NCBI RefSeq assembly: GCF_000510645.1
Contig: NZ_KI783301.1
Location: 2,673,151-2,737,150, forward strand
Source: Thermicanus aegyptius DSM 12793
GTDB taxonomy: Bacteria; Bacillota; Bacilli; Thermicanales; Thermicanaceae
DNA length: 64,000 nt
Reading direction: 5' to 3'
Shown: piece by piece, positions 2,317 to 56,930 of the stretch
Position numbering within the stretch: position 1 is the first letter of the stretch
Layout: each line of letters starts with the position of its first letter
Notes under the pieces: generated by a model
What the model was told of the DNA's origin: nothing
What the model saw: only the letters and a program-made list of their open reading frames with translations
Database searches by the model: none
Translations under genes and position numbers: made by a program

Positions 2317-2349
2317 TCATGGAAGCCTCCTGTCGATGTTCCATTCCCA

Positions 2350-7132: not shown

Positions 7133-7138
7133 CCCGCA

Positions 7139-7411
7139 TCACCCCGGCAACGTGTCGGTCAATCCGTCGATTTCAATATTCAGTTTCCTGAGCACGTACA
7201 GTGCCAAATATTTCGCGATGCCGGGGAAGAATACGAAGACCCCGAGGATGACCGACAGGACAATATGGCTCCATAACCGGTTGTTCTCCCCGTTGGCATA
7301 CATTTTGACACCGCGGTAAATGGCGATGGTCAAAAAAATCGCCTGGAGGATGCGTTTGATCACGAGAAGACCGGTATCGATAAAATCTCCGTTCACTTCC
7401 CCCACCCCCAA
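7139..7411 (-). CDS. Small two-helix membrane protein of the conjugation operon
   Basis: This 90-residue protein has two predicted membrane helices (about residues 12-32 and 45-65), joined by a short loop containing YANGENNRLW. Proteins of this size and topology occur at this place in Gram-positive transfer operons (ICEBs1 ConC-like) and resemble VirB2/VirB3-type components in shape. It lies between the TcpC gene (nine bases upstream) and the TcpE gene (six bases downstream). The role as a channel subunit is inferred from position, since the sequence is too short and divergent for a firm family call. Confidence 0.7.
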   Translation of the reverse strand: MGVGEVNGDFIDTGLLVIKRILQAIFLTIAIYRGVKMYANGENNRLWSHIVLSVILGVFVFFPGIAKYLALYVLRKLNIEIDGLTDTLPG

Positions 7412-7420
7412 ACCAACTTC

Positions 7421-8239: not shown

Positions 8240-8245
8240 CCGGCT

Positions 8246-9145: not shown

Positions 9146-9315
9146 TCCTCCCTTCTTTCGGGGGGCGGAGTGGAGATGTGATTGTCTCGTTTTCTTCAGC
9201 GGTGCGATGCCGCGTTGTTTCGCGCTTTGTTGGCACTGAACAATGAATGGGTTTTATGTCTCATGTTGTGTCTGTTTTTATGTCCGGTTCGATGTCGGGT
9301 TTATGGTGCGTACGG
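9146..9315. other. Candidate transfer origin (oriT) region
   Basis: This 170-base gap lies between the coupling-ATPase and replication-relaxation genes, in an operon that is otherwise packed with gaps under 35 bases. It contains two copies of TTTTATGTC (9252-9260 and 9276-9284), 24 bases apart, and GC-rich flanks. In ICEBs1 the transfer origin lies in the equivalent gap. No nick-site consensus can be proven here, so this is inference from position and the direct repeat. Confidence 0.35.
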
Positions 9316-11688: not shown

Positions 11689-11731
11689 AAAAAGGAACGA
11701 ACTCCCGACGGCGGGATTTCGTCCCTTTTTT
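11689..11731. terminator. Imperfect inverted repeat, probable bidirectional terminator
   Basis: Arms AAAAAGGAACGAACTCCC and GGGATTTCGTCCCTTTTT pair with two mismatches around a short loop, with A and T tracts on either side. Either strand would give a hairpin followed by Ts. It lies about 70 bases upstream of the coupling ATPase start, where it could end transcription from upstream or attenuate the transfer operon. Confidence 0.55.
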
Positions 11732-11758
11732 CTTACGATACCATCTTAACAGGATTCC

Positions 11759-11806
11759 ATTACAATTTCGACACAATTTCGTAACAATTTAGGCCCAATT
11801 TCGGCG
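11759..11806. repeat. Short direct repeats upstream of the transfer operon
   Basis: Four imperfect copies of (A)CAATTT(C/A)G follow each other at about 11-12 base spacing; on the minus strand they read GAAATTGT. Spacing close to one helical turn suggests a protein-binding array on one DNA face. It is the last clear feature upstream of the transfer genes, so it could be a regulator site or an iteron-like replication site. Confidence 0.4.
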
Positions 11807-11858: not shown

Positions 11859-12008
11859 TTACATATCCCGTGTTGATGGCCGTTTCCGCTTCATCCATCG
11901 GGCCATCTCCTCGACTTGCCGCATGACAAAAAATTGATCCTCTTCTGCAATCCCTTCAAGCAATAAGTGTAAAAAATGCCAACTTGATGATCGAAAAACC
12001 ACTGTCAT
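11859..12008 (-). CDS. Small frame or 3' gene remnant, 49 aa
   Basis: On the minus strand a frame open from just after a TGA near 12055 to a TAA at 11859 has protein-like composition. From the ATG at 12008 it gives 49 residues, beginning MTVVFRSSSWHFLHLLLEG and ending in a basic helix ARWMKRKRPSTRDM. The coding look extends upstream of that ATG (QPLLWTVNLERP), and there is no good ribosome-binding site. It may therefore be the 3' end of a truncated gene rather than an intact small gene. No family recognised. Confidence 0.35.
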   Translation of the reverse strand: MTVVFRSSSWHFLHLLLEGIAEEDQFFVMRQVEEMARWMKRKRPSTRDM

Positions 12009-13748: not shown

Positions 13749-13755
13749 AGTCCAC

Positions 13756-14124
13756 CTATTCTTCCAATCTCTTCATCAGTTTTTCAATATCTTCTCTTGT
13801 CAGATCACCGCTGTCGCACAAAGTACTGATCAAGCCCAGCACGGAGCCTTTATGAACATCCTTGATAAATTGCCTGGTTTCAAAGTTCCGGTATTCCTGT
13901 TCCGTAATGCACGGCTCGTAATGGTTCGCTTTTCCGACTCTAATGGCCTTGATGATTCCTTTTTCCATTAAGCGGGCCAAAAACGTGATCACTGTGTTTT
14001 GCTTCCACGTGTTGCCCTCGGGCAAACGTTGAATGATTTCCGACGTCGTTACCGGTCGTGAAGCCTCCCAAATAATCTCCATGATTTGTTTTTCCGCGTC
14101 GGATATTTGTTGAATTTTCTTCAT
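13756..14124 (-). CDS. BlaI/MecI/CopY-family transcriptional repressor
   Basis: This 122-residue protein has the family winged helix: ISDAEKQIMEIIWEASRPVT, then TWKQNTVITFLARLMEKGII. The dimer tail follows, with the region around residues 90-105 where M56 partners cut. Length is standard. The start ATG at 14124 has an AGGAGG site. Two perfect TACA/TGTA-type palindromes lie directly upstream, so the pair is very likely autorepressed and derepressed when the downstream M56 protease cleaves the repressor. Confidence 0.92.
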   Translation of the reverse strand: MKKIQQISDAEKQIMEIIWEASRPVTTSEIIQRLPEGNTWKQNTVITFLARLMEKGIIKAIRVGKANHYEPCITEQEYRNFETRQFIKDVHKGSVLGLISTLCDSGDLTREDIEKLMKRLEE

Positions 14125-14144
14125 GCAAATCCTCCTGTTTTAAT

Positions 14145-14182
14145 CTACATTGTGTAGGTTAATTTCATTCTACATATTGTAG
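14145..14182 (-). promoter_or_regulatory. Two BlaI-type operators
   Basis: CTACATTGTGTAG (14145-14157) and CTACATATTGTAG (14170-14182) are near-perfect dyads with the TACA...TGTA core bound by the BlaI/MecI family. Their centres are 25 bases apart, and they lie 20-58 bases upstream of the repressor start. They overlap the likely promoter. Confidence 0.9.
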
Positions 14183-14440
14183 GTTGAAATGTCAATCCCC
14201 ATTGAACTCCAACTCTGAAAAGGTGTCCGAGCACTAAAAGCAGCCGCTGGCGAATCGGATTGCAGAACGGGACCTGATGCGGAACGTAACAGTCATCCAT
14301 GCGAAGTTCAGCGCCAGGCAGATCTAATTTCCCCTGATCCAGTGCACAGACCCTGCTGAACACAATACACTGAAACACCAACATAAGTTCCATGCGCAAG
14401 CCTTGCGTCAATTTCAAAAGTTTTGTTGGACAACCATTGG
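14183..14440. other. Intergenic stretch with possible old coding remnant
   Basis: No intact gene is seen. On the minus strand, frames across this stretch have protein-like pieces (LDLPGAELRMD, then VPHQVPFCNPIRQRLL) without a start site, cut at 14440 by the insertion sequence. This may be the rest of a gene that the transposon interrupted. I do not recognise it. Confidence 0.3.
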
Positions 14441-14571
14441 CCCGAGTTCGACAGTAAATCGGCATTTTGGGGCACATGAAAAATCAAGAATCGCATAATA
14501 GCAAGGGTCTTCGGGTTTGCCAATAGAAAAAATACGAATTTTCATAGGCACACGTTTTGGTTTATGTTTTC

Positions 14572-14600
14572 TTGTATATAGCGATTTTTTATGTTATTAT
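14572..14600 (+). promoter_or_regulatory. IS1634 transposase promoter
   Basis: TTGTAT (14572-14577) and TATTAT (14595-14600) are spaced by 17 bases. The ATG lies only seven bases after the -10 box, so transcription should begin at or next to the start codon. No ribosome-binding site is present. Confidence 0.6.
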
Positions 14601-14606
14601 ATAGGC

Positions 14607-16271
14607 ATGTACATACGCCGCGTTTCTCGAAAAAATAAAAATGGATCCACAACCGCTTACCTCCAATTAGCACACAATGAATGGGATCCCATCGCTAAAC
14701 ACGCCAAAGCCAAGGTCATTTATTCGTTCGGTCGGGAAGATGAAATCGATCGCTCAGTCCTGGAACGCTTGGTGCAAAGCATCGCCCGCTATCTTACGCC
14801 GGAAGCGGCTTTGCAAGCACAGAATGCGATCGGCGAAACGGCCCAGTTCCTGTTCCAGTCCAGCAAACGTCTGGGTGGGGCCTGGTTGCTCCATCAACTG
14901 TGGCACAAGATCGGCCTGGATGTAATCCTCGAGAAACTGTTCAGCGATCGCAAGCATCAAGCGTCGATTGAACGTCTGATCTTCGCCATGGTGGCGAATC
15001 GGGCGCTGAATCCCTCGAGCAAGCTGGCCATGGAAGATTGGGTGAAGGAAGATGTGTATCTGCCAGGCATAAGCGAGGTAAGCAGTCAGCAACTGTACCG
15101 GGCGATGGATGAACTGCTGGACGTTCAGTCGGAGCTGGAGCACCAGGTGTATTGCTCTGTCTCAGATTTGCTGAATCTGGAGGTCGATCTGCTCTACTTC
15201 GACACCACCTCCTCTTACTTCGAAGTCGATCCGTTCGATGTACCGGAAGACGACACTTTGCGCAAGCAGGGATTTTCGAAGGACAAACGTCCGGATCTGG
15301 TTCAGGTCGTCATCGGATTGGCTGTCACCCGTCAAGGAATTCCGATCCGCTCGTGGGTATGGCCGGGCAATACGTCGGATATGTCCGTCGTCGATCAGGT
15401 CAAGCGCGACTTGGTCGGCTGGAAACTCGGCAGAGTGATCAGCGTCATGGATCGGGGATTCTCCTCCGAAGACAACTTGCGCACATTGCAGCGCACAGGC
15501 GGCCATTATATTGTTGGGGAGAAAATGCGATCCGGCAAAGAAACGACGGACGCAGCGATGAGCCGCAAAGGCCGATACCATCATGTTCGCGAGAATCTGC
15601 AAGTCAAGGACATCGTCGTCGGTGATGGAGAAGCACGCAAGCGCTATGTCTTGGTTCACAATCCCAGGGAAGCTGAGCGGGATCGCCTTCGCCGTGAACA
15701 GATGATCGACCACCTGCAAGTGGAACTGAATGCACTCAAGCAGTTGAGCGGCCAAGCCCATACGAAGGCAACGTGTAAGTTGCGCTCCCATCCGACCTAC
15801 GGAAAGTATTTGCGCCAGCTCAAGGACGGGACGCTCAAGCTGGATAAGCAGGCGATCCGCGATGCGGAGAAGTACGACGGCAAGTATTTGATCCGAACTT
15901 CGGATGACACGCTTTCCGCGGAAGATGTGGCGCTTGGCTACAAGCAACTCGTCGATGTGGAGGATGCGTTCCGTACGCTGAAGACGACACTAGAACTTCG
16001 CCCGATGTTTCATCGTCTGGAGGAGCGCATTCGCGCGCATATTCTACTCAGTTGGCTGGCGTTGCTGCTGGTGCGCATTGTCGAGGTGGAAACCGGCGAA
16101 ACTTGGAGTGCATTTCGCAAGGAACTGGATCGCATCCATCTCGGACATTTTTCTTCGAAAAACGGAGACGTGTACCAGAGCACCGAATTGACCGCCAAAC
16201 AACGAAAAACCTTTGATACGCTTGGGATTGAGGCTCCTCCGAGGTTCCTCGAAATCCAACCCAAGTCATAG
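14607..16271 (+). CDS. IS1634-family DDE transposase
   Basis: The 554-residue product begins MYIRRVSRKNKNGSTTAYLQ, a typical IS1634 opening. An upstream in-frame extension exists, but the ATG at 14607 fits both the family start and the promoter. The catalytic region includes LLYFDTTSSYFE, then GRVISVMDRGFSSEDNL, and a C-terminal YDGKYLIRTSDDTLSAEDV/LRPMFHRLEERIRAH block, the segments that carry the DDE residues. It appears intact, so this copy may be active and may mobilise the related partial copy at 22877-23645. Confidence 0.92.
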   Translation: MYIRRVSRKNKNGSTTAYLQLAHNEWDPIAKHAKAKVIYSFGREDEIDRSVLERLVQSIARYLTPEAALQAQNAIGETAQFLFQSSKRLGGAWLLHQLWHKIGLDVILEKLFSDRKHQASIERLIFAMVANRALNPSSKLAMEDWVKEDVYLPGISEVSSQQLYRAMDELLDVQSELEHQVYCSVSDLLNLEVDLLYFDTTSSYFEVDPFDVPEDDTLRKQGFSKDKRPDLVQVVIGLAVTRQGIPIRSWVWPGNTSDMSVVDQVKRDLVGWKLGRVISVMDRGFSSEDNLRTLQRTGGHYIVGEKMRSGKETTDAAMSRKGRYHHVRENLQVKDIVVGDGEARKRYVLVHNPREAERDRLRREQMIDHLQVELNALKQLSGQAHTKATCKLRSHPTYGKYLRQLKDGTLKLDKQAIRDAEKYDGKYLIRTSDDTLSAEDVALGYKQLVDVEDAFRTLKTTLELRPMFHRLEERIRAHILLSWLALLLVRIVEVETGETWSAFRKELDRIHLGHFSSKNGDVYQSTELTAKQRKTFDTLGIEAPPRFLEIQPKS

Positions 16272-16362
16272 ATACACGCCGTTTCACATGCTTATGCCCG
16301 AAAACCCAGACTGCGCAAGGGATGACGGGCATTTTATTTACCTAGCAACTGTCGAACTCGGG

Positions 16363-16454
16363 ATCGATGGGAGAGCGATTGGATCATGAGTATCCTGGAT
16401 CGCGAATATTTTCAGTTGCATGGAGCAACGGGGACATCGAATGACGAACAGTAG
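16363..16454 (+). pseudogene. 3' remnant of a gene cut by the insertion sequence
   Basis: Directly after the IS end, an open frame reads ESDWIMSILDREYFQLHGATG and stops at 16454, just before the ribosome-binding site of the HAD gene. It has no start of its own other than an internal ATG without a binding site. It looks like the end of a gene truncated at its 5' side. The family is not recognised. Confidence 0.3.
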
Positions 16455-16479
16455 CGGCCGCTGTCAGGAGGCATCCTGA

Positions 16480-17148
16480 ATGATATTTTTTGATCTGGAT
16501 GACACCCTGTTGGATTTCAAAAAAGCGGAACGAAATGCCATAAAAGCGTTCTATCGTCAATTCGGCGGCAGACTGAAACGGTCTGAGGAAAAGTTTGTCG
16601 AAGATTGGATGGAAATCGGCAAAATTCACTTCAATCGATTTTTGCGCGGAGAACTTACATTTGAACAGCAGAAGATCGAGCGGATGATGGATCTTCTTTC
16701 GGGAACCGATATTGAAATAAACCGGGATCGTGCACTGGAATATTTCGGGATATACCTTCATCATTTTGAAGAAAACTGGATTTCGTTTGAGGATGTTGTC
16801 TCCTGTTTGGATTCATTGAAGGGCTATAAACTCGGGATCATCACAAATGGCGATCCAGTTCAGCAACGAAGAAAACTGGAAAAGCTCCGGATATCGGATT
16901 ATTTTCAAGTTGTCGTTGCTTCCGGGGATATTGGCGTATCAAAGCCTGATCCCGAGATCTTCCTGGAGGCCTGCAAGGTTGCTCGGCGAAAGCCGGAGCA
17001 GTGTATCATGATCGGCGATAGTTTGGAAACCGATGTATTGGCTTGCGAGAAGGTTGGAATGAAAGGCGTCTGGCTGAATCGCAAGAATGATGAACGTCAT
17101 GCCAGAACCATAAGAAGTCTGACGGAGATTCATCAATATTTGGGATGA
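16480..17148 (+). CDS. HAD-superfamily (subclass IA) hydrolase
   Basis: The 222-residue protein has all HAD motifs: nucleophile D5 and acid D7 in FFDLDDTLLD, motif II in IITNGDP, the motif III lysine in VSKPDPEIF, and motif IV in MIGDSLETDVLACEKVG. The helical cap lies between residues 20 and 90, as in YjjG-type nucleotide phosphatases. The start has a CAGGAGG site ten bases upstream. Substrate cannot be read from the sequence; a small phosphate ester such as a nucleoside monophosphate is likely. It is cargo of the putative composite transposon. Confidence 0.9.
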   Translation: MIFFDLDDTLLDFKKAERNAIKAFYRQFGGRLKRSEEKFVEDWMEIGKIHFNRFLRGELTFEQQKIERMMDLLSGTDIEINRDRALEYFGIYLHHFEENWISFEDVVSCLDSLKGYKLGIITNGDPVQQRRKLEKLRISDYFQVVVASGDIGVSKPDPEIFLEACKVARRKPEQCIMIGDSLETDVLACEKVGMKGVWLNRKNDERHARTIRSLTEIHQYLG

Positions 17149-17173
17149 CGGGTAGCGGTGTGACCGCCGCACG

Positions 17174-17473
17174 ATGTCCCACGTCCAGTTCATGACCGGG
17201 AAAGTGATCTTCGATCCGCACGGCGTTGTGGGGCAGCTCAAGCAAGAAGCAAAGGAATGGAAAGCGAAAAAAAATAACGGGATCGCTCCGTCACGGATCG
17301 AGCTGAAGAAATACGGGTTATGGGACGCGTATGACAACCTGTCGGATTGCTTTGAATCGGGCAGGAGCGATTTTGATTACGTCTATTATCAATCGCTGTA
17401 CCTTGTCTTCAACGAATACTGCGCGCTGCTGAATATCGAGAGGATACGCAAAGTTGTTCATGACGGCTGTTGA
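17174..17473 (+). pseudogene. C-terminal remnant of a nucleotidyltransferase-like protein
   Basis: This 99-residue frame (VQFMTGKVIFDPHGVVGQLK, then LKKYGLWDAYDNLSDCFESG) resembles the region after the catalytic domain in minimal nucleotidyltransferases, which often read TGE.LYDP.G....L. The catalytic GS.A.G..D.DSD part is absent. The coding look extends a few codons upstream of the ATG (RCDRRT) to a stop, and no ribosome-binding site is seen. It is best read as a 5'-truncated gene. The family call is tentative. Confidence 0.4.
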
Positions 17474-17849
17474 GGTCGAGTCGGACCGGACTTAAGGTCT
17501 GCTGAACAAGCCAGCTTGGCAGTGTAAAATCTTCGCGGGAGTAAGAAGATGGAGGAAGCGAGCATTAGAAAAAGAGCTTCTCCCTTGGTGAAGCGAGTTT
17601 GCCGAAATACGCACCGAAAGGAGGAAGCTCCATAAGCAACTTGACCCCAACGATTCCGCAGATGAAAGAACTGGAGCGATGGTTGTTTCGAAAAATGCAT
17701 CTAAACGGCTGTTCAGCTGACCCATGCCGCCAAAGACGCGCGAGCGAGGGGATCTGCCTTGTAGACGGCTTTCGGGATCGCCGGCACGCGGTCACGGTTG
17801 AAAAGCCGTTTTCGGGCGAGCAGATCGGTGTCTTGCGTCCGCGCAGAAT
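17474..17849 (+). other. Remnant-rich intergenic region, possible UPF0236/ISLre2 transposase scrap
   Basis: No intact gene is seen. At about 17630-17715 the plus strand reads LTPTIPQMKELERWLFRKMH, similar to the N-terminal opening of UPF0236/ISLre2 transposases as I recall it, and then breaks off. The rest shows no gene on either strand. Confidence 0.3.
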
Positions 17850-20729
17850 TTATTTCCGAACCTCCAACGCCCGAAGCAGCATCACCACGGCTTCGACCCG
17901 CGTGGCGGTAGCGCCGGGCGCGAAGCGCAAACCGTCGCGGCCGAGGACAATGCCCGTTTCCCGCAGCGCTTCCGCCGCGCCTTTCGCCCAGGCCGGAATG
18001 GCTTCGTCATCGGTAAAGTCGGTCCGTACCACGTTGCGGTCGGCCATCCCCAGTGCTCTGGCGATCATCACCGCCATCTCCGCGCGGGTGACGGGCTTAT
18101 CCGGGCGGAAGCTGCCGTCTGCGTACCCGGACACGATGCCTTTCTCAACGGCCAGCGCCACCGCTTCCTTGGCCCACTTAGCGATCCGGTCCTTATCGGC
18201 GAAGGGCGGCGCCTTGGAGCCGGATGCGCCGGCGGCTGTTCCCTTGGTATCACCCAGCCCCAGGGCCTGAACCAGCATGACGAGAAACTCGGCGCGGGTG
18301 ATGGGGTGGTTCGGCCGGAATGTCCCGTCCGGATAGCCTTTCACCCAACTTTTCGCCGCCGCTTCCCGAATGAACGATTCCCCCCAGTGGCCGGCGATGT
18401 CGGTAAAGCTCGGCGCCGGTGTTGCCGGAGGCGTCTCGATTGGCGGCTCTTTCTCCGCTTCGGTCGCCAGAATGGCAAACTTCGCGAAACGGTCCGTCTC
18501 CGCCGTCACCCATTCGCCCTCCACCTTGCCGCCCATGCTGATCCACTTCTGCTGTTCTTCGTCATAGTAGAAGATGGAGACCTTCCGGTTGTCTTCCGAT
18601 TTGGCGGGATCAAACTTGATCGAGATTGTCACTGGTTTCCCGAGAGGAACGGGCTTGTCTCCGGCAATCTCGAACACGGCGCTGGCGAAGGTCTGCCCCT
18701 CGCCGGCCGATGCCGCATCGGCCGCTTTCGTGATGGTCACGAACAGGGGTTGTTCAGTGGTGCCAGCCGGGATTGAAAGGACGAAATCATTCCCCAAGCG
18801 GATCGTTTTCCCTTCCCCCGCGGCAACGAACCACTGGTTCAGAGGCAGAACTGAACCTCCTCCGCTTCCTCCTCCGCTTCCTCCTCCGCTTCCTCCTCCG
18901 CTTCCTCCCCCGCTTTCTCCTCCACTTCCCGCGGAAGGGTCATAGACGCGCACCGTGCGCCGTACCTGGTCCGCGGCGTTGCCCGCCGAATCCGTCACGT
19001 CATACAGAATCGTATACGTCCCCAACTTGGCCGTATCGACCCTATCGCCGGAGACGACCACCCTGGCCGTGACGTCGCCGTCCAAGTCATCCGTGGCGGT
19101 GTAGCCCGGGTCTGCAAAGGCGGAACCCAGCGGCGCCTGCATCGCCGCGTCGCCGCGCAAGGTAATAACGGGTTTGACGCGATTGATGTTCGTGATCTCG
19201 ATTTGTTGAACCGCCTCGTGGCCGGCCTGATCTTTCGCATAGACACTGAGCCAGCCGTTGTCCGTTACGAGGATTTGCGCGTTCAGGGTCGACGGATCCG
19301 ACAGATCCAGCGGAGTGCCTTTGCCGCTTGCAAAGTACGTTTGATCGTGCTGACCGTCTTCATATTTGACCTCAGCCAAGTCGCCATCTTGGTCTTCAAC
19401 TTCTACTGTAACGCTGACAGCCTGATTGGTCGGGGCTTGCGGAGCGCTCAAGCGGATGCTCGGAGAAGAGACGTCGATGTAGAACGGTTCGGAATGACGG
19501 GACCAATGTCCGGTCCTGCCATTGTCAACTTCGATCTCGGCCATGACGTGCAAATACCAGATGCCCGTCTTATCAGGCGCGAGGATTTCGGCCCCGCTGT
19601 TGAAAGAAGTCCAGTTTTCGGAAGCCGGATCTGCGGAATCCCATACGGGCAGCGCGTCAGATTCGCTCCACTGATAATACGCGCCCATGAACGAGGAATT
19701 TACCGTTACCTGTGTCTTCGCGCTTCGCACCCAGACGTGTCCGCTCCCGTCCGGATTGAACGCGATGTCGCTCGGATCTATGGACTCGATGGGGATAAAT
19801 GGATAAGTGCCGGCAAATTGAGTTGCATATTTTTCGGGAGCGATGATGTTTACGGAGGAATTCCATTTGCCAGAAGGGGCAAATACATCTATGCCAAAGG
19901 TTGTGTGATCTCCCTCAATCACCACAATCGATATCAGGTTATATGCGAAGGCTCTATAATCGATATAACCGACATTCTCCGGAATGGTCACGCTGGTGAG
20001 TTGATTACTGTAAAAAGCAAAACCGCCAATCTCCGTGACGCTGTCCGGAATGGTCACGCTGGTGAGTTCATTATTGTAAAAAGCCATTTGGTCAATCTTC
20101 CTGACGCTGTCCGGAATCGTCACGCTGGTGAGTTGGTTGGACCGAAAAGCCCCAATGCCGATCTCCGTGACGCTGTCCGGAATCGTCACGCTGGTGAGTT
20201 GATTATTGTAAAAGAGATCAAACGCAATCGTTGTCATATTGTTCGAAAGTTTCACGCTTTTGAGCTGGTTGTTGGCAAACGCAGAACTGCCTATCGTTGT
20301 CACGCTGTCCGGAATGGTCACACTGGTGAGTTGATTACGGTTAAAAGCATATGGGCCAATCTCTGTTACGCTGTCCGGGATGGTCACGCTGGTGAGTTGA
20401 TTATTGGCAAAAGTATATGTACCAATCTTCGTGACGCTGTTCGGAATCGTCACCTTTGTCAGCTTGTTTGGATTAGAGGTACGATCAAATGCCCTATCCC
20501 CGATTTTGGTCACGGTCAGTCCGTTGATCGTTTCGGGAATGTCCACTTCCGTGTCGGCTCCATCGTATCCCGTAATTACCGCCTCATTAGACCCCAAAAC
20601 AATGTAATGAAAACCTTCAAACACCAATTCGTCGGCCCTCACCTGTCCCGCGTGCGAGCCAACGGCCAGCAGCGTCACGAATGCAAGCATCCATGCGCAC
20701 TTGGCGAGAAAACGCGATTCGACCTTCAT
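17850..20729 (-). CDS. Secreted leucine-rich-repeat and SLH-domain surface protein
   Basis: This 959-residue surface protein uses the ATG at 20729, behind AAAGGTGG; an upstream in-frame start at 20765 lacks a site. Residues 1-33 form a signal peptide. Residues about 45-275 hold BspA-type leucine-rich repeats of 23 residues (SVTIPDSVTEIG.(Y)AF..NQLT). Two Ig/cadherin-like regions follow, at about 385-515 and 515-595, the latter with a DDLDGDVTARV motif. A GGGS linker at about 600-625 precedes a domain at about 630-750. Three SLH domains (FTDIAGHWGESFI, FADKDRIAKWAKEA, FTDDEAIPAWAKGA) tether it to the cell wall polymer. It probably mediates adhesion or binds extracellular polymers. Confidence 0.9.
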   Translation of the reverse strand: MKVESRFLAKCAWMLAFVTLLAVGSHAGQVRADELVFEGFHYIVLGSNEAVITGYDGADTEVDIPETINGLTVTKIGDRAFDRTSNPNKLTKVTIPNSVTKIGTYTFANNQLTSVTIPDSVTEIGPYAFNRNQLTSVTIPDSVTTIGSSAFANNQLKSVKLSNNMTTIAFDLFYNNQLTSVTIPDSVTEIGIGAFRSNQLTSVTIPDSVRKIDQMAFYNNELTSVTIPDSVTEIGGFAFYSNQLTSVTIPENVGYIDYRAFAYNLISIVVIEGDHTTFGIDVFAPSGKWNSSVNIIAPEKYATQFAGTYPFIPIESIDPSDIAFNPDGSGHVWVRSAKTQVTVNSSFMGAYYQWSESDALPVWDSADPASENWTSFNSGAEILAPDKTGIWYLHVMAEIEVDNGRTGHWSRHSEPFYIDVSSPSIRLSAPQAPTNQAVSVTVEVEDQDGDLAEVKYEDGQHDQTYFASGKGTPLDLSDPSTLNAQILVTDNGWLSVYAKDQAGHEAVQQIEITNINRVKPVITLRGDAAMQAPLGSAFADPGYTATDDLDGDVTARVVVSGDRVDTAKLGTYTILYDVTDSAGNAADQVRRTVRVYDPSAGSGGESGGGSGGGSGGGSGGGSGGGSVLPLNQWFVAAGEGKTIRLGNDFVLSIPAGTTEQPLFVTITKAADAASAGEGQTFASAVFEIAGDKPVPLGKPVTISIKFDPAKSEDNRKVSIFYYDEEQQKWISMGGKVEGEWVTAETDRFAKFAILATEAEKEPPIETPPATPAPSFTDIAGHWGESFIREAAAKSWVKGYPDGTFRPNHPITRAEFLVMLVQALGLGDTKGTAAGASGSKAPPFADKDRIAKWAKEAVALAVEKGIVSGYADGSFRPDKPVTRAEMAVMIARALGMADRNVVRTDFTDDEAIPAWAKGAAEALRETGIVLGRDGLRFAPGATATRVEAVVMLLRALEVRK
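18856..18926. repeat. Short tandem repeat encoding the Gly-Ser linker
   Basis: A 12-base unit (TTCCTCCTCCGC on the plus strand) is repeated about five times and encodes GGGS on the minus strand. Slippage would change linker length by four residues and keep the frame. Confidence 0.8.
19990..20460. repeat. 69-bp coding repeats of the leucine-rich region
   Basis: Around seven imperfect copies of a 69-base unit containing GTCACGCTGTCCGGAAT and GGTGAGTTG lie within the surface protein gene. Each encodes one 23-residue repeat. High DNA identity between neighbours points to recent duplication or gene conversion. Confidence 0.8.
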
Positions 20730-20794
20730 GTTGCAAACGCCCCACCTTTCGAAACGTGTCGACAAATTATTTCATAGATTAATAATTTAACTAA

Positions 20795-20823
20795 AATATA
20801 GCAGAAATCGGGAAAGTTGTCAC
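20795..20823 (-). promoter_or_regulatory. Promoter of the SLH surface protein gene
   Basis: On the minus strand GTGACA (20823-20818) and TATATT (20800-20795) are spaced by 17 bases. The -35 box lies only seven bases from the end of the IS21-type element, so the insertion left the core promoter intact but cut away anything upstream. Confidence 0.65.
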
Positions 20824-20890
20824 GCTACCTGTCAACGCCGGGTTGAAATTGACCCGCTAGCGCCGACTTAAAATTGACCCACCCACGGTC

Positions 20891-21646
20891 TCAAGTTTCC
20901 TTGTCGGCAAGTTGCCGCCGTTCTTTCAGGCGGTAGCTGTTGCCGCGAATGTTCAGGATGTGCGCATGGTGTAACAGCCGATCTAGCACGGCCGTTGCCA
21001 GTGCGCGATCCCCTGGCAGCTCGCCCCATTCGCCGAAGCTTTTGTTGCTCGTGATGACAAGGCTTCCACGTTCGTAACGTGCGCTCACGATGTGAAAGAA
21101 CAAGTTGGCGGCCACCGCGTCCAGCGGCATATACCCGACCTCATCCACGATGACCAGTTTCGGTCGAAGGTAGACGCGCATGCGGCGATCCAGGAGATTC
21201 TCCTCGTACGCCTTGCGTAAGTCGCTCATCATCCGGGTCAGACTGACGAAATAGACCGACAGCCCTTGCCGGATCGCTTCCACACCGAGCGCCACAGCCA
21301 GATGGCTCTTACCAACGCCGGGAGGCCCGAGCAACATCACGTTTTCTTGCCTTCCCACAAACGTCATCGTCGCCAATTCCCGAACCATCCGCTCATCAAT
21401 GCTGGGCTGAAACGAAAAGTCGAATTCCTCCAGCGTTTTGCGATAGGGCAAGTGCGCCAGCTTCGTCCGCACTTCGAGATTACGCTGCCTCCGCTTTGCG
21501 CGCTCGTAATCGAGCAGCGTCTGCACAAAGGTCAGGTAGTCGCTTTTATCGCGTGTGGCCCTCCGCAACGCATCCTCCAGAATCGTCGCCGCGTGTTCCA
21601 GTCCCAGTTCGGCCAGGCGTTCGCGAACGTCAATCACGGCACTCAC
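20891..21646 (-). CDS. istB: IstB-type transposition ATPase of IS21 copy 1
   Basis: This 251-residue AAA+ helper protein has Walker A GPPGVGKSHLAV at about residues 107-118 and Walker B LVIVDEVGYMP. IstB remodels target DNA and activates the IstA transposase. Length is normal for the family. The start at 21646 overlaps the istA stop by four bases, the usual coupling. A related fragment of the same 3' end occurs at 37188-37326. Confidence 0.93.
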   Translation of the reverse strand: MSAVIDVRERLAELGLEHAATILEDALRRATRDKSDYLTFVQTLLDYERAKRRQRNLEVRTKLAHLPYRKTLEEFDFSFQPSIDERMVRELATMTFVGRQENVMLLGPPGVGKSHLAVALGVEAIRQGLSVYFVSLTRMMSDLRKAYEENLLDRRMRVYLRPKLVIVDEVGYMPLDAVAANLFFHIVSARYERGSLVITSNKSFGEWGELPGDRALATAVLDRLLHHAHILNIRGNSYRLKERRQLADKET

Positions 21647-22765
21647 GCGCTCACCTCCGCCAGTCGGTCATAAAGATCGAGCGAGAGAGTTTCCACCGTT
21701 TCCATCGGGACTTGTCGCGCGCACGGCCGAGCGGCGGCGTGGCCTTGGGCAGCCTGAAGGCCGGCGTACTGACCAGGCAGCATGACGACAGCACGCGAAC
21801 GGTGCACCTGGGAATGTTCGGCGACCAGCCGGCCGTCGAACCACACCTCAAGGCGGCCCCGCAGCAAGCGTACGGCGACTTCCCGACCGCTGTAGGCCCA
21901 CGGCACGCCATAGCGCACCCCGTCGAAGCTGACAAAGCCATCCTGACTGACGCGCCGCGTCTCGAAGCGAAACGGAGCGAGTTTCTCCTCAGCGGGCAAG
22001 TCCTGGAGCTTCTCCCGCGGCAGCCGGTCACAAGGGCGTTCGCCCGTGGTGCCGTGCACACGGCGATTTTTCTCGTCACACCACCTCCGAGCCTGCGCGT
22101 TCAAGTCTCCGAGATCGGTGAATGTGCGTCCGGGCAAGAAGTTGTCTTTGACGAAGCGAACGCCGCGCTCCACCTTGCCTTTTGTTTGCGGACGCCGTGC
22201 GCGACAGACTCTCGGTACCCTGCCAATGGCAGCGGCGAAATCGGCAAACAACGGATGCCACCGCGGCTTGCGATCGTCGCCCATCCCCAGGATCACCGTC
22301 TTCATCCGGTCGGTGAGCATGACGTTCGGAACACCGCCAAAGTACTCCAGCGCATGAATGAGGCAATGCAGGAAGCTGCGGATGTCGCAGCGTTTGGCGA
22401 ATTCGACGTATATCGCCCGCGAATAGCCGAGCACCATGACGAACACCGGTACCTTATGGAGGACACCCTGTTCATCGATGTACTCGCCTATAGTCTTGCC
22501 ACCTGTATAGCCTTGAAGCTGGATGCGTTCCCACAGCATCTCGCAATTGGTGATGCCTTGGGCTATGTAGTCGTCGAGCAAAGGTTTGAACGGATCCAGT
22601 TTCGAGCCGCGTTTGGGGCGCGGCTGGCGCTCGGGGATGCCGTCTGAGCGCAAATATTTGCGTACCGTGTTGCGAGCGATAACCGGTCTCTCGGACGATT
22701 TCGCGAATGCTCTTGCCCATAGCTTTGAGTTCGTGTAAGCTAATCACTGTCCCACTCCTGAGCAT
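21643..22765 (-). pseudogene. istA: IstA transposase of IS21 copy 1, frameshifted
   Basis: The reading frame starts at the ATG at 22765 behind GAGGAGAC and gives MLRSGTVISLHELKAMGKSI, then REIVRETG. The match then moves to another frame (IARNTVRKYLRSDGIPERQ) that continues with the rve/DDE domain (KTVILGMGDDRKP, RRPQTKGKVERGV) to the stop at 21643. One extra base at about 22679-22683 explains the shift. Unless recoding occurs, the N-terminal DNA-binding helix-turn-helix is separated from the catalytic domain and the element cannot move by itself. Confidence 0.82.
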
Positions 22766-22876
22766 AAACAGTCTCCTCTGCGTATCTTGGTCGATATCCT
22801 CAGAGGGCTTTTATTCTACAGGGGTGGGTCATTTTCTTTCCGGCGATCCCGGGTCAATTATACTCCGGCGGCAACA

Positions 22877-23554
22877 AATCTGCAAGTCAAGGACATCGTC
22901 GTCGGTGATGGAGAAGCACGCAAGCGCTATGTCTTGGTTCACAATCCCAGGGAAGCTGAGCGGGATCGCCTTCGCCGTGAACAGATGATCGACCACCTGC
23001 AAGTGGAACTGAATGCACTCAAGCAGTTGAGCGGCCAAGCCCATACGAAGGCAACGTGTAAGTTGCGCTCCCATCCGACCTACGGAAAGTATTTGCGCCA
23101 GCTCAAGGACGGGACGCTCAAGCTGGATAAGCAGGCGATCCGCGATGCGGAGAAGTACGACGGCAAGTATTTGATCCGAACTTCGGATGACACGCTTTCC
23201 GCGGAAGATGTGGCGCTTGGCTACAAGCAACTCGTCGATGTGGAGGATGCGTTCCGTACGCTGAAGACGACACTAGAACTTCGCCCGATGTTTCATCGTC
23301 TGGAGGAGCGCATTCGCGCGCATATTCTACTCAGTTGGCTGGCGTTGCTGCTGGTGCGCATTGTCGAGGTGGAAACCGGCGAAACTTGGAGTGCATTTCG
23401 CAAGGAACTGGATCGCATCCATCTCGGACATTTTTCTTCGAAAAACGGAGACGTGTACCAGAGCACCGAATTGACCGCCAAACAACGAAAAACCTTTGAT
23501 ACGCTTGGGATTGAGGCTCCTCCGAGGTTCCTCGAAATCCAACCCAAGTCATAG
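22877..23554 (+). pseudogene. Truncated IS1634 transposase
   Basis: Only the C-terminal part remains, from NLQVKDIVVGDGEARKRYV to the stop at 23554. The frame runs upstream into IS21 sequence without a genuine start. It carries only the last part of the DDE core and cannot be functional. Confidence 0.88.
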
Positions 23555-23703: not shown

Positions 23704-23742
23704 TAAAAAAGAGACACATTCGCTGTCCGAATGTATCTCTCT
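23704..23742 (-). terminator. Terminator of the sigma-like regulator gene
   Basis: On the minus strand a 13-pair stem (AGAGATACATTCG with its partner, one mismatch) is followed by TTTTTTATTTTATTT. It lies six bases after the stop of the regulator gene. Confidence 0.88.
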
Positions 23743-23747
23743 TCCCT

Positions 23748-24239
23748 TTATGAACATGTCTGCAGATCCGGACCCGTTGTTTCATTGTTCATCGTTTCTT
23801 TACCGTCCAGAAAATCGGGCAAACATGTTTCACCGCCCATGGCTTGGTAGATCTTGTCCAAGATTTTATTGCGCCGCCAGTAATACATCCTTTTCGATAA
23901 GTGCAAGCGATCCATGGTCAAAGAACTGGCCAGTTGACTGAAATAACGAATTTCCACAAACTCTCTTTCCTCCGGGGTGAGCGTGGGGAGAGAGACGTCG
24001 ATCAGGCGAATTCGCCTTTCCAGTTTGAACATCTCGTTTTCCAATTCCGAACGATGCACAACCGTTTTTAAAACGGGATCTTTCTTCCGGCCCTTTCCAT
24101 GGATCGCTACCAAATCAAAGTGCTGTGCCAGGTTCGGGATGTCTTCCAGTTGAATTTTCAATGCTTCAATTCTGGATTTCCACAGATTGTAGGACAGCAA
24201 CCAGGATTCGACCAAACCGTAAGGGGTCGTTTGTGTCAT
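23748..24239 (-). CDS. Sigma-region-4-like (ArpU/RinA-type) regulator
   Basis: The ATG at 24239 has a GGGGGAGGAGGGA site; a longer frame from 24440 has none. The 163-residue protein has an N-terminal coiled-coil region (WKSRIEALKIQLEDI, then SELENEMFKLERRIRLIDV) and a C-terminal helix-turn-helix like sigma factor region 4 (LTPEEREFVEIRYFSQLASS, LHLSKRMYYWRRNKIL). This layout is that of ArpU/RinA-type late-gene activators of phages and mobile elements. It overlaps the stop of a 52-residue gene by three bases (ATGA), so the two are coupled. Target genes are unknown. Confidence 0.65.
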   Translation of the reverse strand: MTQTTPYGLVESWLLSYNLWKSRIEALKIQLEDIPNLAQHFDLVAIHGKGRKKDPVLKTVVHRSELENEMFKLERRIRLIDVSLPTLTPEEREFVEIRYFSQLASSLTMDRLHLSKRMYYWRRNKILDKIYQAMGGETCLPDFLDGKETMNNETTGPDLQTCS

Positions 24240-24394
24240 TCCCTCCTCCCCCATCCTTGCTGCCGTATGCTTCCCTCCACTCGAAAACGCGAATCGTGAC
24301 GTATCCTTCCTTCCAAAAAGCAAAATTGACTTTCTTCGCGGCCGCGAATCGGCTCGAACAAATGGCCGTGGTGAGGCAAAACGCCAAGGCTCAT
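24236..24394 (-). CDS. Small basic protein, 52 aa, coupled to the regulator gene
   Basis: The minus strand has a very good site (AAAGGAGGG, seven-base spacing) before the ATG at 24394. The 52-codon frame begins MSLGVLPHHGHLFEPIRGRE and ends GWGRRE. Its TGA shares bases with the next gene's ATG, giving an ATGA junction. No domain is recognised; it is basic and soluble. The site and the coupling are better evidence than the sequence itself. Confidence 0.55.
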   Translation of the reverse strand: MSLGVLPHHGHLFEPIRGREESQFCFLEGRIRHDSRFRVEGSIRQQGWGRRE

Positions 24395-24510
24395 CGTCAT
24401 CCCTCCTTTCCGTAATCAGGGACTTCGGAGGTAAAATCAACTGAAGCCGAAACGGAGGGTCCCTGTCAGACGTTTACCGTCACCAAAAAACCGTTTTTCT
24501 CCAAACCTGC

Positions 24511-24573
24511 TTAGGAAGGGCTTGAGCGGAAATGCGGGGCAGGCCTGTCCACTTTGATGCGATTCTTCTTCAT
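24511..24573 (-). CDS. Possible 20-residue peptide gene (alternative 47-residue frame)
   Basis: AGAAGGGAGGTGATGAGGA precedes an ATG at 24573 with ideal spacing. The frame gives a 20-residue basic peptide (MKKNRIKVDRPAPHF, ending SSPS). A second ATG at 24580, two bases after the same site, opens a 47-residue frame ending at 24437. The first has the better spacing. Either could be a leader or signal peptide for the downstream coupled genes. Confidence 0.4.
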   Translation of the reverse strand: MKKNRIKVDRPAPHFRSSPS

Positions 24574-24615
24574 TCCTCATCACCTCCCTTCTGATTCAGC
24601 ACCATTTTACAGGTG

Positions 24616-24640
24616 AAAAAGAAGCCAATGACTTGGCTTC
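24616..24640 (-). terminator. Terminator downstream of the two-component genes
   Basis: A perfect eight-pair stem GAAGCCAA-TGAC-TTGGCTTC (24621-24640) is followed on the minus strand by TTTTTC. It separates the two-component genes from the small-gene/regulator unit. Confidence 0.85.
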
Positions 24641-24662
24641 TGCTGAATCCTGCATATGCTTT

Positions 24663-24875
24663 TTAACGCTTCCTTCTTCGCTCCCACCTCCATTTTCGCT
24701 GATTAAGGTGAACATATCGAATTTCGATAAACGTGATGCAAAGCGTCAGTCCCACAATCATCCATACAATGACCCAGGCACACAACTTCCCATCCAACAC
24801 AGATCCCGTAAGCGCTCCCTTCCAGTCAACCGAAAATCCCAAGCAAAATAGGTCAAACGATCCAGTCTGTATTTT
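24663..24875 (-). CDS. Possible small one-helix membrane protein without clear start
   Basis: A 70-codon open frame on the minus strand has a hydrophobic stretch (LCAWVIVWMIVGLTLCITF) followed by a very basic end (NQRKWRWERRRKR). That is a classic single-span, positive-inside layout. It lies between the response regulator and the terminator. No ATG with a ribosome-binding site is present; only TTG or GTG starts would serve. It could be a genuine small protein of the operon or a decayed gene. Confidence 0.3.
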   Translation of the reverse strand, partial: KIQTGSFDLFCLGFSVDWKGALTGSVLDGKLCAWVIVWMIVGLTLCITFIEIRYVHLNQRKWRWERRRKR

Positions 24876-24946
24876 TTATGATACGGGACTCGACAAAATA
24901 TGGAAGGATGATTTTTTCGTCATCCCCCTTGAATTGGGCCTCTCCT

Positions 24947-25585
24947 TTAAAACAGCCCTTTTCGTTTCGCGATTTGCGCCGCTTCCTGGCCCGAGGTGGC
25001 CCCCAATTTCTTCATGATATGTCGAATATGGGTTCTGACGGTGTTCGTTGATATTTGCAGATATTCGGCAATGCCGGATCGGGTATATCCCTGGGCCAGT
25101 AATTGAAGAATTTCTTTTTCCATGGATGTGATCCGTTGCTGCAATTCACTTTGTCTCAGCCGGTGCAATTCCCCCAGGATCACGCCCGCCACTTCTTCCG
25201 GGATCACCGTCACGTTTTGATGGGCCTGACGGATCGCTTCCGGAAGTTTTTCATATTTCGTCTTTGGGATATAATTGACGGCCCCGGCGGTGAAGGCATC
25301 CAGAATCACTTCACTTTCTTCCACGGAAGTCAGCATCATCATTTTGACAGCCGGTTTTTGTCGCAACATGTCCAAAGCCGCATCCAGCCCGTCGTACTTT
25401 CCGGGAGTCAGCACGATATCTATAAGAACGACATCCACTTCCGTCTGTTGGAAGATCGAAAGGGCTTCTTCCTTGGTTGCCGCGGCATGCACCAGACAAA
25501 AATCCGGTTGTTTCCCCAAATACGCGGCCAAAGCGTGTTGCCACACCGGATCATCCTCCACGAGCAAAATTCTGATTTTCTCCAA
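24947..25585 (-). CDS. NarL/LuxR-family response regulator
   Basis: This 212-residue protein has a receiver domain (MEKIRILLVEDDPVWQ with acidic residues about 10-11, the phospho-acceptor Asp near residue 56 in VDVVLIDIVLTP, and MMLTSVEES). A LuxR-type helix-turn-helix follows at about 150-205 (GYTRSGIAEYLQISTNTVRT, HIRHIMKKLGA). It lies 17 bases downstream of the histidine kinase gene and is its obvious partner. The receiver has the unusual insertion TPGKYDG after the phospho-acceptor region. Confidence 0.92.
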   Translation of the reverse strand: MEKIRILLVEDDPVWQHALAAYLGKQPDFCLVHAAATKEEALSIFQQTEVDVVLIDIVLTPGKYDGLDAALDMLRQKPAVKMMMLTSVEESEVILDAFTAGAVNYIPKTKYEKLPEAIRQAHQNVTVIPEEVAGVILGELHRLRQSELQQRITSMEKEILQLLAQGYTRSGIAEYLQISTNTVRTHIRHIMKKLGATSGQEAAQIAKRKGLF

Positions 25586-25602
25586 ACCCGTTCACCTCCT
25601 AT

Positions 25603-26982
25603 TCAACACTCGGGATTAGACCTGTTTTTCGGCTTTGGAAAAAAGAGCGTCACCGTCGTGCCTTCGTTTAAAACACTTTCAACCTCAATAAACCCCTCAT
25701 GTTTTTGCATGACGTTGTAGCAAAATGACAATCCCAATCCAAAATTTCCGGATTCCTTCTTGGTCGAATAAAACGGTTCCATCACATGCGGCAAATCTTC
25801 CGGTGAAATACCTACCCCGTTGTCCATGACTTCCACAATGACGTGTTTTTGCGTCTCATAAAGAGAAAGGTACAGCCTCCCCCTTTCTTCCATCGCCTCC
25901 ATCGCGTTGGTGAAAAGATTTTTCAATACTTCCCGGATCAACACTTCGTCACAAAACACCGAAGTGTTTCCCGTCGAATCTACGATTACCTGAAATTGTT
26001 TCTGTTCCAAATAAGGCCGGATATGCGACAGGCTCATTTGGATGATGTCTTCCAGGTTGCACCATCGTTTTTTCACTTCGTCGTCCCGAAGTTGGCTTTG
26101 AATGCGGGAAACCAACGTAAGCAAATGTTCCGAAGAATCCAAAATGGCGCGGCCATATTGCTGGATTTCCGTTTGGTGGTTGGCTGCGGCAGCGGATTGA
26201 ATCAGTTCTGCCATGATTTTAATCTTCCCCATCTCATTTTTTATTGCATGGTTGATGATGGACGTTCCCGCTGTTGTCGCCCGAAGAGCATGATGCAAAC
26301 TGTTTTTTTCAAACCGAAAGCGGACACCGAGAATGCCATGCTTGGACAACAGCAAAAAAGTGAAAAACATCACTCCGATCACCACGGGCGCATATCTCCA
26401 GATTTCGGGCCACCCGGGAAAGAAAGCCTCCGTCGTATAGAGGGCTGTCGCCTGAAACACCACGGGCGGAATCACCAAAATATTCGTATGCATTCGGTCC
26501 CGCCTGAACCAACCGTTTTTTTCGATTCTCGTACTGTACAGCAAAAGAAGCGTTCCGATGATGAAATATGGAACGCACCAAACGAAATACATCCGGTAAT
26601 CCGGCTGAATGTCCGGAGCAAAGGGAGTGATCCAAAACATGACGGGAATCGGTAAAAATAATAGGAAGGAGATGACTTTTTTGATTCTCTCCCGAAACAA
26701 TTCAGAGTAACAAATCGCGAACATCAGGAAACAATAAGGGGTTCCCACCAGATTCAGAAAGGAACCCGCCAAATGGATTTTGAACAAGATCAGCTCCAAA
26801 GCGTTTGTGCCAATCTGAAAATGATGCAAATACGGCAATATGTTTTCCGTAATGGTTAGGGAAAGTGCTCCGCCGCCGGCGACAAAAAGCGTAAGCGAGA
26901 TCCACCTGGCCGCTTCATATTTGGGATTGGTAATGAGCAATATGGCAGCCAACGTCCATAATACAATAAGAACTAATACCAT
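25603..26982 (-). CDS. Multi-span sensor histidine kinase
   Basis: The 459-residue kinase has about seven membrane helices in residues 1-220 with little outside sequence, like ComP-type kinases that sense small or membrane-linked signals. A phospho-acceptor histidine lies in SIINHAIKNEMGKIK at about residue 250. The ATP-binding domain shows the N box (LFTNAMEAM), G1 (DNGVGI) and G2 (GLGLSF). The ATG at 26982 has a GGAAGG site eight bases upstream. A 7-bp inverted repeat upstream and a c-di-GMP riboswitch farther upstream, both in this orientation, suggest layered control. Confidence 0.9.
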   Translation of the reverse strand: MVLVLIVLWTLAAILLITNPKYEAARWISLTLFVAGGGALSLTITENILPYLHHFQIGTNALELILFKIHLAGSFLNLVGTPYCFLMFAICYSELFRERIKKVISFLLFLPIPVMFWITPFAPDIQPDYRMYFVWCVPYFIIGTLLLLYSTRIEKNGWFRRDRMHTNILVIPPVVFQATALYTTEAFFPGWPEIWRYAPVVIGVMFFTFLLLSKHGILGVRFRFEKNSLHHALRATTAGTSIINHAIKNEMGKIKIMAELIQSAAAANHQTEIQQYGRAILDSSEHLLTLVSRIQSQLRDDEVKKRWCNLEDIIQMSLSHIRPYLEQKQFQVIVDSTGNTSVFCDEVLIREVLKNLFTNAMEAMEERGRLYLSLYETQKHVIVEVMDNGVGISPEDLPHVMEPFYSTKKESGNFGLGLSFCYNVMQKHEGFIEVESVLNEGTTVTLFFPKPKNRSNPEC

Positions 26983-27029
26983 ACCATCATCCTTCCCCCT
27001 TTCACGAAACGTCTTATTCCTTCAACAAC

Positions 27030-27055
27030 TATACTAAGCGATATCAAGTAGTATA
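27030..27055 (-). promoter_or_regulatory. Inverted repeat upstream of the kinase, possible operator
   Basis: TATACTA and TAGTATA form a perfect 7-bp dyad separated by 12 bases, 48 bases upstream of the kinase start. The size fits a dimeric LuxR-type regulator site, so autoregulation by the cognate response regulator is possible. Confidence 0.45.
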
Positions 27056-27391
27056 TGACCTTGTTTTACTGGTGCTCGCAGCGCTGAACAATACGATTAT
27101 CAGCTTTATGAAGGCATCGTTGAAATGAATGAAACCTATTCTGCACTCTGAGAAGGGAACGAAGTGCAAACCTCGTAAAAGCAGCAGTGTCCCAGAGCAA
27201 ACCTGGCAATACTTAACAACGCAGTGTACTTTTATGCGTAAGATTGTCAATGATTAACAAGCGTCTTAAAGTCGTGGAAGAAGGATCGTACCAAGAAGTT
27301 AGATGAAGTCCTCGGTGCGAAATTGTAAAGAATGTACTGATGTGTGGCGAAGAATTCAGTACATACGCCAAACCTAAGTTGTAAATAAAGA
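27056..27391. other. Intergenic stretch between terminator and kinase operator
   Basis: No gene is recognised on either strand. Plus-strand fragments such as KSWKKDRTKKLDEVLGAKL suggest decayed coding sequence, but stops interrupt every frame. Confidence 0.3.
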
Positions 27392-27420
27392 CAAAAAAGA
27401 CACGTACCCAAGAGGTAGTG
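27392..27420 (-). terminator. Terminator in the riboswitch expression platform
   Basis: On the minus strand CACTACC-TCTT-GGGTACGTG forms a stem with one bulge, followed by TCTTTTTTG. It begins about 18 bases after the riboswitch aptamer. Confidence 0.8.
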
Positions 27421-27432
27421 CCTAGCTGTCAT

Positions 27433-27536
27433 TACAATAGGGTAACCCGGCGATCATTGCATTGATAGCAATGCATTAGACCCGTGGCTTTGCGCCCCTG
27501 TCTTTCGAACAGGTTTGCCATTTTTCCTATTTTGTT
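27433..27536 (-). ncRNA. Cyclic di-GMP-I (GEMM) riboswitch
   Basis: The minus strand reads GGCAAACC, CGAAAG, GGCGCAAAGCC, GGGTCTAA, then GATCGCCGGGTTACC, the conserved GEMM-I order including the GAAA tetraloop and its receptor region. Outer stem P1 is formed by AAAATAGG (27534-27527) and CCTATTGT (27441-27434). A terminator follows, so ligand binding probably controls read-through. The next gene in this direction is the histidine kinase 450 bases away, with no intact gene between, so the natural target may be lost or may be the kinase operon. Confidence 0.93.
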
Positions 27537-56400: not shown

Positions 56401-56410
56401 ATATTATTAT

Positions 56411-56891: not shown

Positions 56892-56930
56892 ATGAAGTAT
56901 TCGAATTGGGGAAATCCCGCATCGATGAAA

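Follow-up and report, generated by a model that had tools for sequence, protein, structure and literature searches.

A c-di-GMP-I riboswitch, a kinase/response-regulator pair and a RinA-like activator with a coupled small gene as the probable regulatory front of a conjugative element in Thermicanus aegyptius

It has been reported for CTnDOT, a conjugative transposon of Bacteroides, that the two-component pair RteA/RteB acts via a second element-borne regulator, RteC, on the excision and transfer genes (PMC1976400). A comparable set of genes is found in the DNA considered here, a stretch of 64,000 nucleotides (nt) from Thermicanus aegyptius DSM 12793 (contig NZ_KI783301.1, positions 2,673,151 to 2,737,150 of the forward strand), to which we refer at its full length as the window. 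It encodes a many-span histidine kinase, a NarL/LuxR-type response regulator, several very small frames and a RinA/ArpU-type activator, and it contains a cyclic di-GMP (c-di-GMP) class I riboswitch aptamer 456 nt 5' of the kinase gene (Table 1). The aptamer was absent from an earlier reading of the letters and their open reading frames (the sequence-only reading), the frames of which were all found again on the minus strand at the same positions. From our point of view, this block probably serves an integrative and conjugative element (ICE) as its regulatory front, and control would run from the riboswitch to the response regulator, from there to a cassette formed by a small gene and the RinA-like gene, and finally to the transfer genes.

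Like the Rte cascade, the window element carries a two-component pair and a second regulator, in a gene order that is compatible with such a cascade. The input to CTnDOT is tetracycline, whereas here it is probably c-di-GMP sensed by a riboswitch; furthermore, the second regulator is RinA/sigma-region-4-like and comes with a coupled small protein, and both the phylum and the conjugation machinery are different. By analogy, the system in the window would hence work like the Rte system of CTnDOT without being a member of it. With the Tcp, Tn916 and ICEBs1-type systems of Firmicutes it shares TcpC, TcpE, a VirB4-like ATPase, a coupling protein, a Replic_Relax protein and a peptidase, whereas the ImmR/RapI-PhrI control of ICEBs1 and the control scheme of Tn916 differ from the control region of the window, and the tyrosine recombinases and Tad-like genes of the window genome lie further to the left. 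The RinA/ArpU activators of phage late genes resemble the window protein in sequence family (phrog_36) and in their sigma-region-4-like fold; the window gene, however, precedes a conjugation operon, scores below the curated RinA cut-off and is accompanied by a coupled small gene. A link between ICEs and c-di-GMP signalling is known from the SXT/R391 family, which carries diguanylate cyclases (PMC2791158), but those elements make c-di-GMP while the window element appears to read it. Lastly, the aptamer family and the terminator-type expression platform are those of the flagellar-operon switch of Clostridioides difficile, although the target here is a mobile-element regulator and not a set of flagellar genes.

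When 295 genomes of the Cohnella/Paenibacillus family were searched, the RinA-like protein was found to have about two dozen clear relatives there, and the neighbourhoods fetched for them sort into two main types. In type A (loci L034, L073, L075 and L103-L107, and the window minus its insertion), the gene of the coupling protein follows the RinA-like gene at a distance of 0.1-2.1 kb. In L073, L075, L103 and L105-L107 the row then runs from the coupling protein through Replic_Relax, TcpC, TcpD and TcpE to VirB4, and in L034 and L104 the coupling protein is seen, in the case of L034 with an XRE gene between it and the RinA-like gene. In type B, an orphan response regulator is encoded 0.4-0.5 kb before the RinA-like gene, which is followed by genes for a sigma-70 region 4-like protein, a DUF6075 protein and an NlpC/P60 protein, in L119 also by tyrosine recombinases; one type B copy resides on a plasmid of Cohnella herbarum, where the RinA-like protein is annotated as hypothetical.

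Directly 5' of the regulator gene, 11 of the 12 type B loci carry an aptamer of the c-di-GMP-I or c-di-GMP-I-GGC kind, and in the twelfth (L120) the 3' half of an aptamer and a terminator are all that is left after a rearrangement, whereby the loci are not all independent (L111-L115 plus L118, and L116/L120/L122, are close copies). Outside the family, L140 and L141 show an aptamer followed by a winged-helix regulator, a divergent XRE gene and the small gene-RinA pair. A homologous aptamer (82% DNA identity) precedes a row of HAD, kinase and regulator genes in Cohnella fermenti, while no aptamer was found near any of eight related kinase/regulator pairs on chromosomes. Such aptamers are rare, with 41 in 9 genomes, and in G141 the only one found is that of the RinA locus. 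Since they are rare and nevertheless recur before the regulators, chance adjacency of aptamer and regulator is, on these counts, excluded for practical purposes. The signal input is likely an RNA, namely the c-di-GMP-I riboswitch, and as the host genome encodes several GGDEF domains, the ligand is probably made.

A terminator is present between the aptamer and the regulator or kinase gene in nine out of nine leaders tested. In all nine, the aptamer tail UUACCC(UC) is complementary to (GA)GGGU(A) in the 3' arm of the terminator, the flanking bases of this pairing covary (CCCUC/GAGGG; CCCA/UGGG), and in six of the nine leaders it is better than that of at least 97% of shuffled tails. As binding of c-di-GMP should hold the tail, the ligand would favour termination, and the riboswitch is predicted to be an OFF switch. 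In C. difficile, class I c-di-GMP riboswitches have been described as OFF switches that act on transcription (PMC11477304).

The coding status of the genes downstream was assessed against the close relative L034 of Cohnella laeviribosi, by means of the ratio of nonsynonymous to synonymous substitution rates (dN/dS) and of insertions and deletions (indels). Gene order is identical in the two loci and the DNA is about 85% identical, even though the window genome belongs, according to the kinship labels, to another order than the Cohnella/Paenibacillus family, which points to a recent horizontal transfer of the locus. The kinase is 87% identical at the amino acid (aa) level to its counterpart, over the part contained in L034. 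It had been called ComP-like in the sequence-only reading, and this holds for its many membrane spans but not for its phosphoacceptor region, which gave a weak HisKA match (E 0.025) and, in the domain search, no match to the ComP-type HisKA_3. The assignment of its partner as a LuxR-type regulator was borne out by receiver and LuxR-type domains. The regulator gene starts 17 nt 3' of the kinase gene, is preceded by AGGAGGTG and has a dN/dS of 0.08; the acidic pocket, the phosphoaccepting Asp, the Thr and the Lys of the window regulator are all intact. A regulator stands beside the RinA-like gene in four type A loci (the window, L034, L103 and L075, each with a kinase) and in the 12 type B loci, and those of the window, L034, L075 and type B group together in a single clade (support 0.975), which excludes the chromosomal relatives as well as the L103 regulator and a second regulator of C. 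fermenti. In some type B regulators the phosphoaccepting Asp is replaced (by Asn in L108 and L109, by Glu in L111), a loss that would be in keeping with the absent kinase.

The protein at the end of the row, which had been proposed to be a sigma-region-4-like regulator, kept this assignment. It matches phrog_36, a family that has no curated cut-off, whereas the NCBIfam RinA match (24.8 bits versus a cut-off of 31.9) and a DUF1492 match both stay below theirs. In its AlphaFold2 model (predicted local distance difference test score, pLDDT, 81), Foldseek finds matches to models of phage sigma-region-4 or activator proteins (E 5e-5 to 1e-3), and among experimental structures in the PDB it matches region 4 of sigma factors with weak E-values. 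Judging from the model, the protein carries a sigma-70 region 4-like C-terminal fold, and with a dN/dS of 0.16 it is conserved between the window and L034. The module does end in a dedicated transcription factor, as had been suggested, and its order matches no named system.

Directly upstream lies the coupled gene of 52 residues of the sequence-only reading, which fared equally well. Its dN/dS is 0.37, its three indels relative to L034 (3, 9 and 27 nt) are all in frame, and every type A locus has a gene of 54-72 aa at this place that ends in [FY]Y..LMRHDW..RV.HRIRQRGWG or a variant thereof (RIRHDSRFRVEGSIRQQGWG in the window). The stop codon overlaps the RinA start as NTGA in all type A loci and in two further families, where the motif reads YE.[LM]M.HDA..[RK]VKGRVRQ.KW (L139-L141), so that the gene occurs in four bacterial families in total. 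The part common to the C-termini can be given as RHD....V....IRQ..W or, more fully, as MRHD..RV..RIRQ..W. A profile of this motif matches only beside RinA-like genes and nowhere in type B loci, and neither Pfam nor NCBIfam contains a family that matches the protein. At its end, the motif falls on the Shine-Dalgarno (SD) sequence of the RinA-like gene, and its conservation may partly stem from that, but the upstream part (RHD, IRQ) lies outside the SD. By these features, the coupled small gene is real and its product is an undescribed family found only beside these activators. The AlphaFold2 model of the product is a single low-confidence helix (pLDDT 57).

Based on this arrangement, the following mechanism seems the most likely to us. 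The riboswitch and a transcription terminator head the kinase/response-regulator operon, and at low c-di-GMP the terminator would not be formed and the regulators would be made. The window regulator, which could still be phosphorylated by its own kinase, would then turn on the small gene-RinA cassette, and the RinA-like protein together with its translationally coupled small partner would activate the conjugation operon, the first gene of which encodes the coupling protein, with a predicted target site in the leader region before that gene. The gene identities, the riboswitch, the terminators, the coding status, the co-occurrence and the synteny were observed, and the gene arrangement is well supported; the response to the ligand and its sign, the steps from the regulator to RinA and from RinA to the operon, and the part played by the small protein are what we infer from it.

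Several observations weigh against this mechanism. A gene-free gap of about 400 nt separates the riboswitch terminator from the kinase gene in the window, and no promoter of the RinA cassette was identified. In the leaders of C. fermenti, L108 and L115, the pairing of tail and terminator is not better than in 132, 111 and 92 of 500 shuffled tails, respectively. The small gene-RinA pair of L104-L107 (and of L073, up to the contig end) has no adjacent kinase/regulator pair or riboswitch, and since such type A elements exist, the upstream input is not obligatory. As for a relaxase, the Replic_Relax protein is the only candidate; no MOB-type relaxase was seen, and no profile search was aimed at relaxases.

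It could be argued, in line with these type A loci, that the kinase, the regulator and the riboswitch are cargo at an insertion hot spot and that the small gene-RinA pair alone controls transfer. L104-L107 have no regulator at that place but arsenic or metal-homeostasis genes, and the constant part is the small gene-RinA pair. We nevertheless regard this as unlikely, as a regulator is found beside RinA in two element types, mostly from one clade, and as riboswitch and regulator recur in other families together with a different DNA-binding protein. A different objection concerns the sign of the switch, which is predicted from sequence: high c-di-GMP, that is sessile life with close neighbours, might turn on the regulators and with them transfer, and biofilm formation reportedly drives the transfer of ICEBs1 (PMC6158512). 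An ON-type switch deserves to be taken seriously but seems rather unlikely to us, given the pairing of the aptamer tail with the terminator 3' arm and the OFF sign of the C. difficile class I switches.

The sequence-only reading had proposed that the layout is a peptide quorum-sensing module, in which small genes make a signal for the ComP-like kinase and a dedicated factor stands at the end. The many membrane spans of the kinase, its LuxR-type partner and the adjoining small genes would suit this, as would the one-helix membrane protein, which has a single hydrophobic segment and, with a dN/dS of 0.15, is coding and under purifying selection. That protein (a longer frame of 59 aa with start at 24842 is possible) is found, however, among the neighbourhoods fetched, only in the window and its nearest relative L034. 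The 20-residue frame with its strong SD fails as a gene, as the local DNA is poorly conserved and the counterpart of its SD and ATG in L034 opens an unrelated frame of 51 codons. Moreover, a terminator-like hairpin between the one-helix gene and the 20-residue frame divides the latter from the kinase operon, which implies that the RinA cassette cannot be regarded simply as the end of that operon, the kinase lacks HisKA_3, and the conserved small protein is free of hydrophobic stretches and accompanies the activator throughout, even where no kinase is nearby. Taken together, a peptide-signal module is very improbable. The same can be said of a prophage remnant, in which the RinA-like protein would have served a now decayed phage as late activator, a case that had been named as one that would speak against the layout. 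The protein is indeed of the phage activator type and has a weak match in a Parageobacillus phage, yet among 50,697 phage records there is a single match, at 8e-5, and in the ICE-type relatives the RinA-like gene is followed by conjugation and not by phage packaging genes, so that this explanation is largely refuted by synteny. The hairpin itself is flanked by a 9-bp inverted repeat (GATTCAGCA/TGCTGAATC, 24593-24649, minus strand), which is nearly kept in L034.

Returning to a regulatory front with a riboswitch at its head, one could speculate that the loci represent a class of conjugative elements of Bacilli in which a c-di-GMP OFF riboswitch is the master input to a regulator, be it a response or a winged-helix regulator, that feeds a RinA-like activator and the new small protein, and in which the regulator of members that lost the kinase would no longer need phosphorylation, so that the RNA switch alone decides. 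We put this generalisation forward tentatively and with some doubt. The arrangement suggests that such elements tie their transfer to the motile or sessile state of the host. If true, the second messenger that sets this state and the decision of a mobile element to transfer would be linked directly at the molecular level, with an RNA as the reader on the side of the element. Arsenic resistance genes are found on several of the related elements, and the switch may hence bear on the spread of such cargo; next to the RinA region these genes were seen in L105, L111 and L122, and thus in both element types. In the literature, we found no paper that joins a c-di-GMP riboswitch and an ICE, with subscription papers mostly outside the coverage, and nothing specific on RinA/ArpU proteins in ICEs.

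Table 1. Features of the control region and of the conjugation genes, with positions in the window
Feature	Position	Strand	Evidence and remarks
c-di-GMP-I riboswitch aptamer	27438..27529	-	Rfam RF01051, 75.3 bits (gathering score 35)
Intrinsic terminator of the expression platform	27393..27422	-	3' arm GGGUA can pair with aptamer tail UACCC
Gene-free stretch between terminator and kinase	27004..27392	-	No conserved gene; possible mobile-element remnant (by eye)
Many-span histidine kinase	25603..26982	-	459 aa; HATPase_c 3e-25; about 6 hydrophobic/membrane segments by hydropathy
NarL/LuxR-type response regulator	24947..25585	-	Response_reg 1e-17, GerE 2e-16
One-helix membrane protein	24663..24800	-	45 aa from GTG; one hydrophobic segment
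Terminator-like hairpin AGAAGCCAAgtcaTTGGCTTCTTTTT	24616..24649	-	Fold z -3.6; kept in L034
20-residue frame with strong SD GGGAGGTG	24511..24573	-	Not conserved
Small gene coupled to RinA-like gene	24236..24400	-	54 aa (52 from second ATG); stop overlaps next start (ATGA)
RinA/ArpU-type activator, sigma-70 region 4-like fold (predicted)	23748..24239	-	163 aa; phrog_36 1.4e-14
Intrinsic terminator 3' of RinA-like gene	23705..23746	-	Fold z -7.1
Inserted DNA between RinA-like gene and conjugation genes	12072..23554	.	Transposases, M56/BlaI-type pair, repeat/SLH protein
XRE regulator gene remnant	11880..11963	-	93% over 28 aa to intact L034 gene (3464-3799)
Leader of conjugation operon	11689..11790	-	Two AATTGTnnCGAAA repeats 11 bp apart, promoter-like block CCTGTTAA..GAT, terminator-like hairpin
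Type IV coupling protein (TrwB_AAD_bind)	9316..11616	-	Pfam 1.4e-9
Replication-relaxation family protein	8246..9145	-	Pfam 8e-20
TcpC-like conjugation protein	7421..8239	-	Pfam 1e-15
Small protein in TcpD position	7139..7411	-	76-82% identical in relatives; no Pfam match
TcpE-like protein	6383..7132	-	Pfam 4.5e-13
VirB4-like conjugation ATPase	3903..6386	-	AAA_10 1e-54
Membrane protein in VirB6/TrbL position	2350..3906	-	62-65% identical in relatives; function by position
M23 peptidase of conjugation gene row	1390..2316	-	Pfam 3.5e-31

The Tcp-type operon of the window spans 1390-11616, with the coupling protein, VirB4, TcpC and TcpE in one row. The coupling protein is 87% identical to that of L034 and 65% identical to that of L075, where it comes after the RinA-like gene. 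In the window, about 11 kb of DNA lie between the RinA-like gene and the operon that are not present in the relatives, which argues that this copy has undergone an insertion or a rearrangement. The block is very probably part of an ICE that is partly broken up in the window, and in view of this insertion, which is rich in insertion sequences (IS), and of the gene-free stretch between riboswitch and kinase, regulation of the window copy may no longer work as it should. Homology to Cohnella thermotolerans stops at about 27004. A multi-copy IS was considered as the source of 27010-27380, a segment of which the genome contains a single copy. The HAD gene of C. fermenti has no window counterpart and was dropped as an ancestral part. 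On other contigs of C. laeviribosi, neither the N-terminus of the kinase nor a riboswitch was found.

As to the leader of the operon, several type A members have a block like CCTGTTAAtctGATAGTGTCA before the coupling protein gene with a terminator-like hairpin close behind (GGACAGGCC..GGCCTGTCTTTT in L105), and the window and L034 have an analogous promoter-like block with AATTGTnnCGAAA-like repeats 11 bp apart upstream. The layout of promoter and hairpin that is common to the relatives suggests attenuation or antitermination. The phased repeats are seen in the window and L034 but other relatives differ, so that we do not take them for a common operator.

The inserted region is bracketed by a full-length transposase gene (14517-16271) and, in the same orientation, a fragment identical to its C-terminal part (22787-23554). 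By eye, it further contains a pair of M56/BlaR1-like and BlaI-like genes (12072-14124) and, on the minus strand at 17850-20765, a gene for a protein of 971 aa with leucine-rich surface-type repeats and SLH-like C-terminal domains. Left of the window genes, the genome carries Tad-like genes and three tyrosine recombinases, the latter about 47-58 kb left of the RinA-like gene. Elsewhere in the window, 13 tRNA genes are clustered on the minus strand (56321-58129). In L142 (G240), a c-di-GMP-I aptamer (5993-6079, 84.5 bits) precedes a gene for an EAL-PAS-histidine kinase of 899 aa (6219-8918), which lies about 9 kb upstream of the local kinase, regulator and RinA genes and is followed by a second, weak aptamer.

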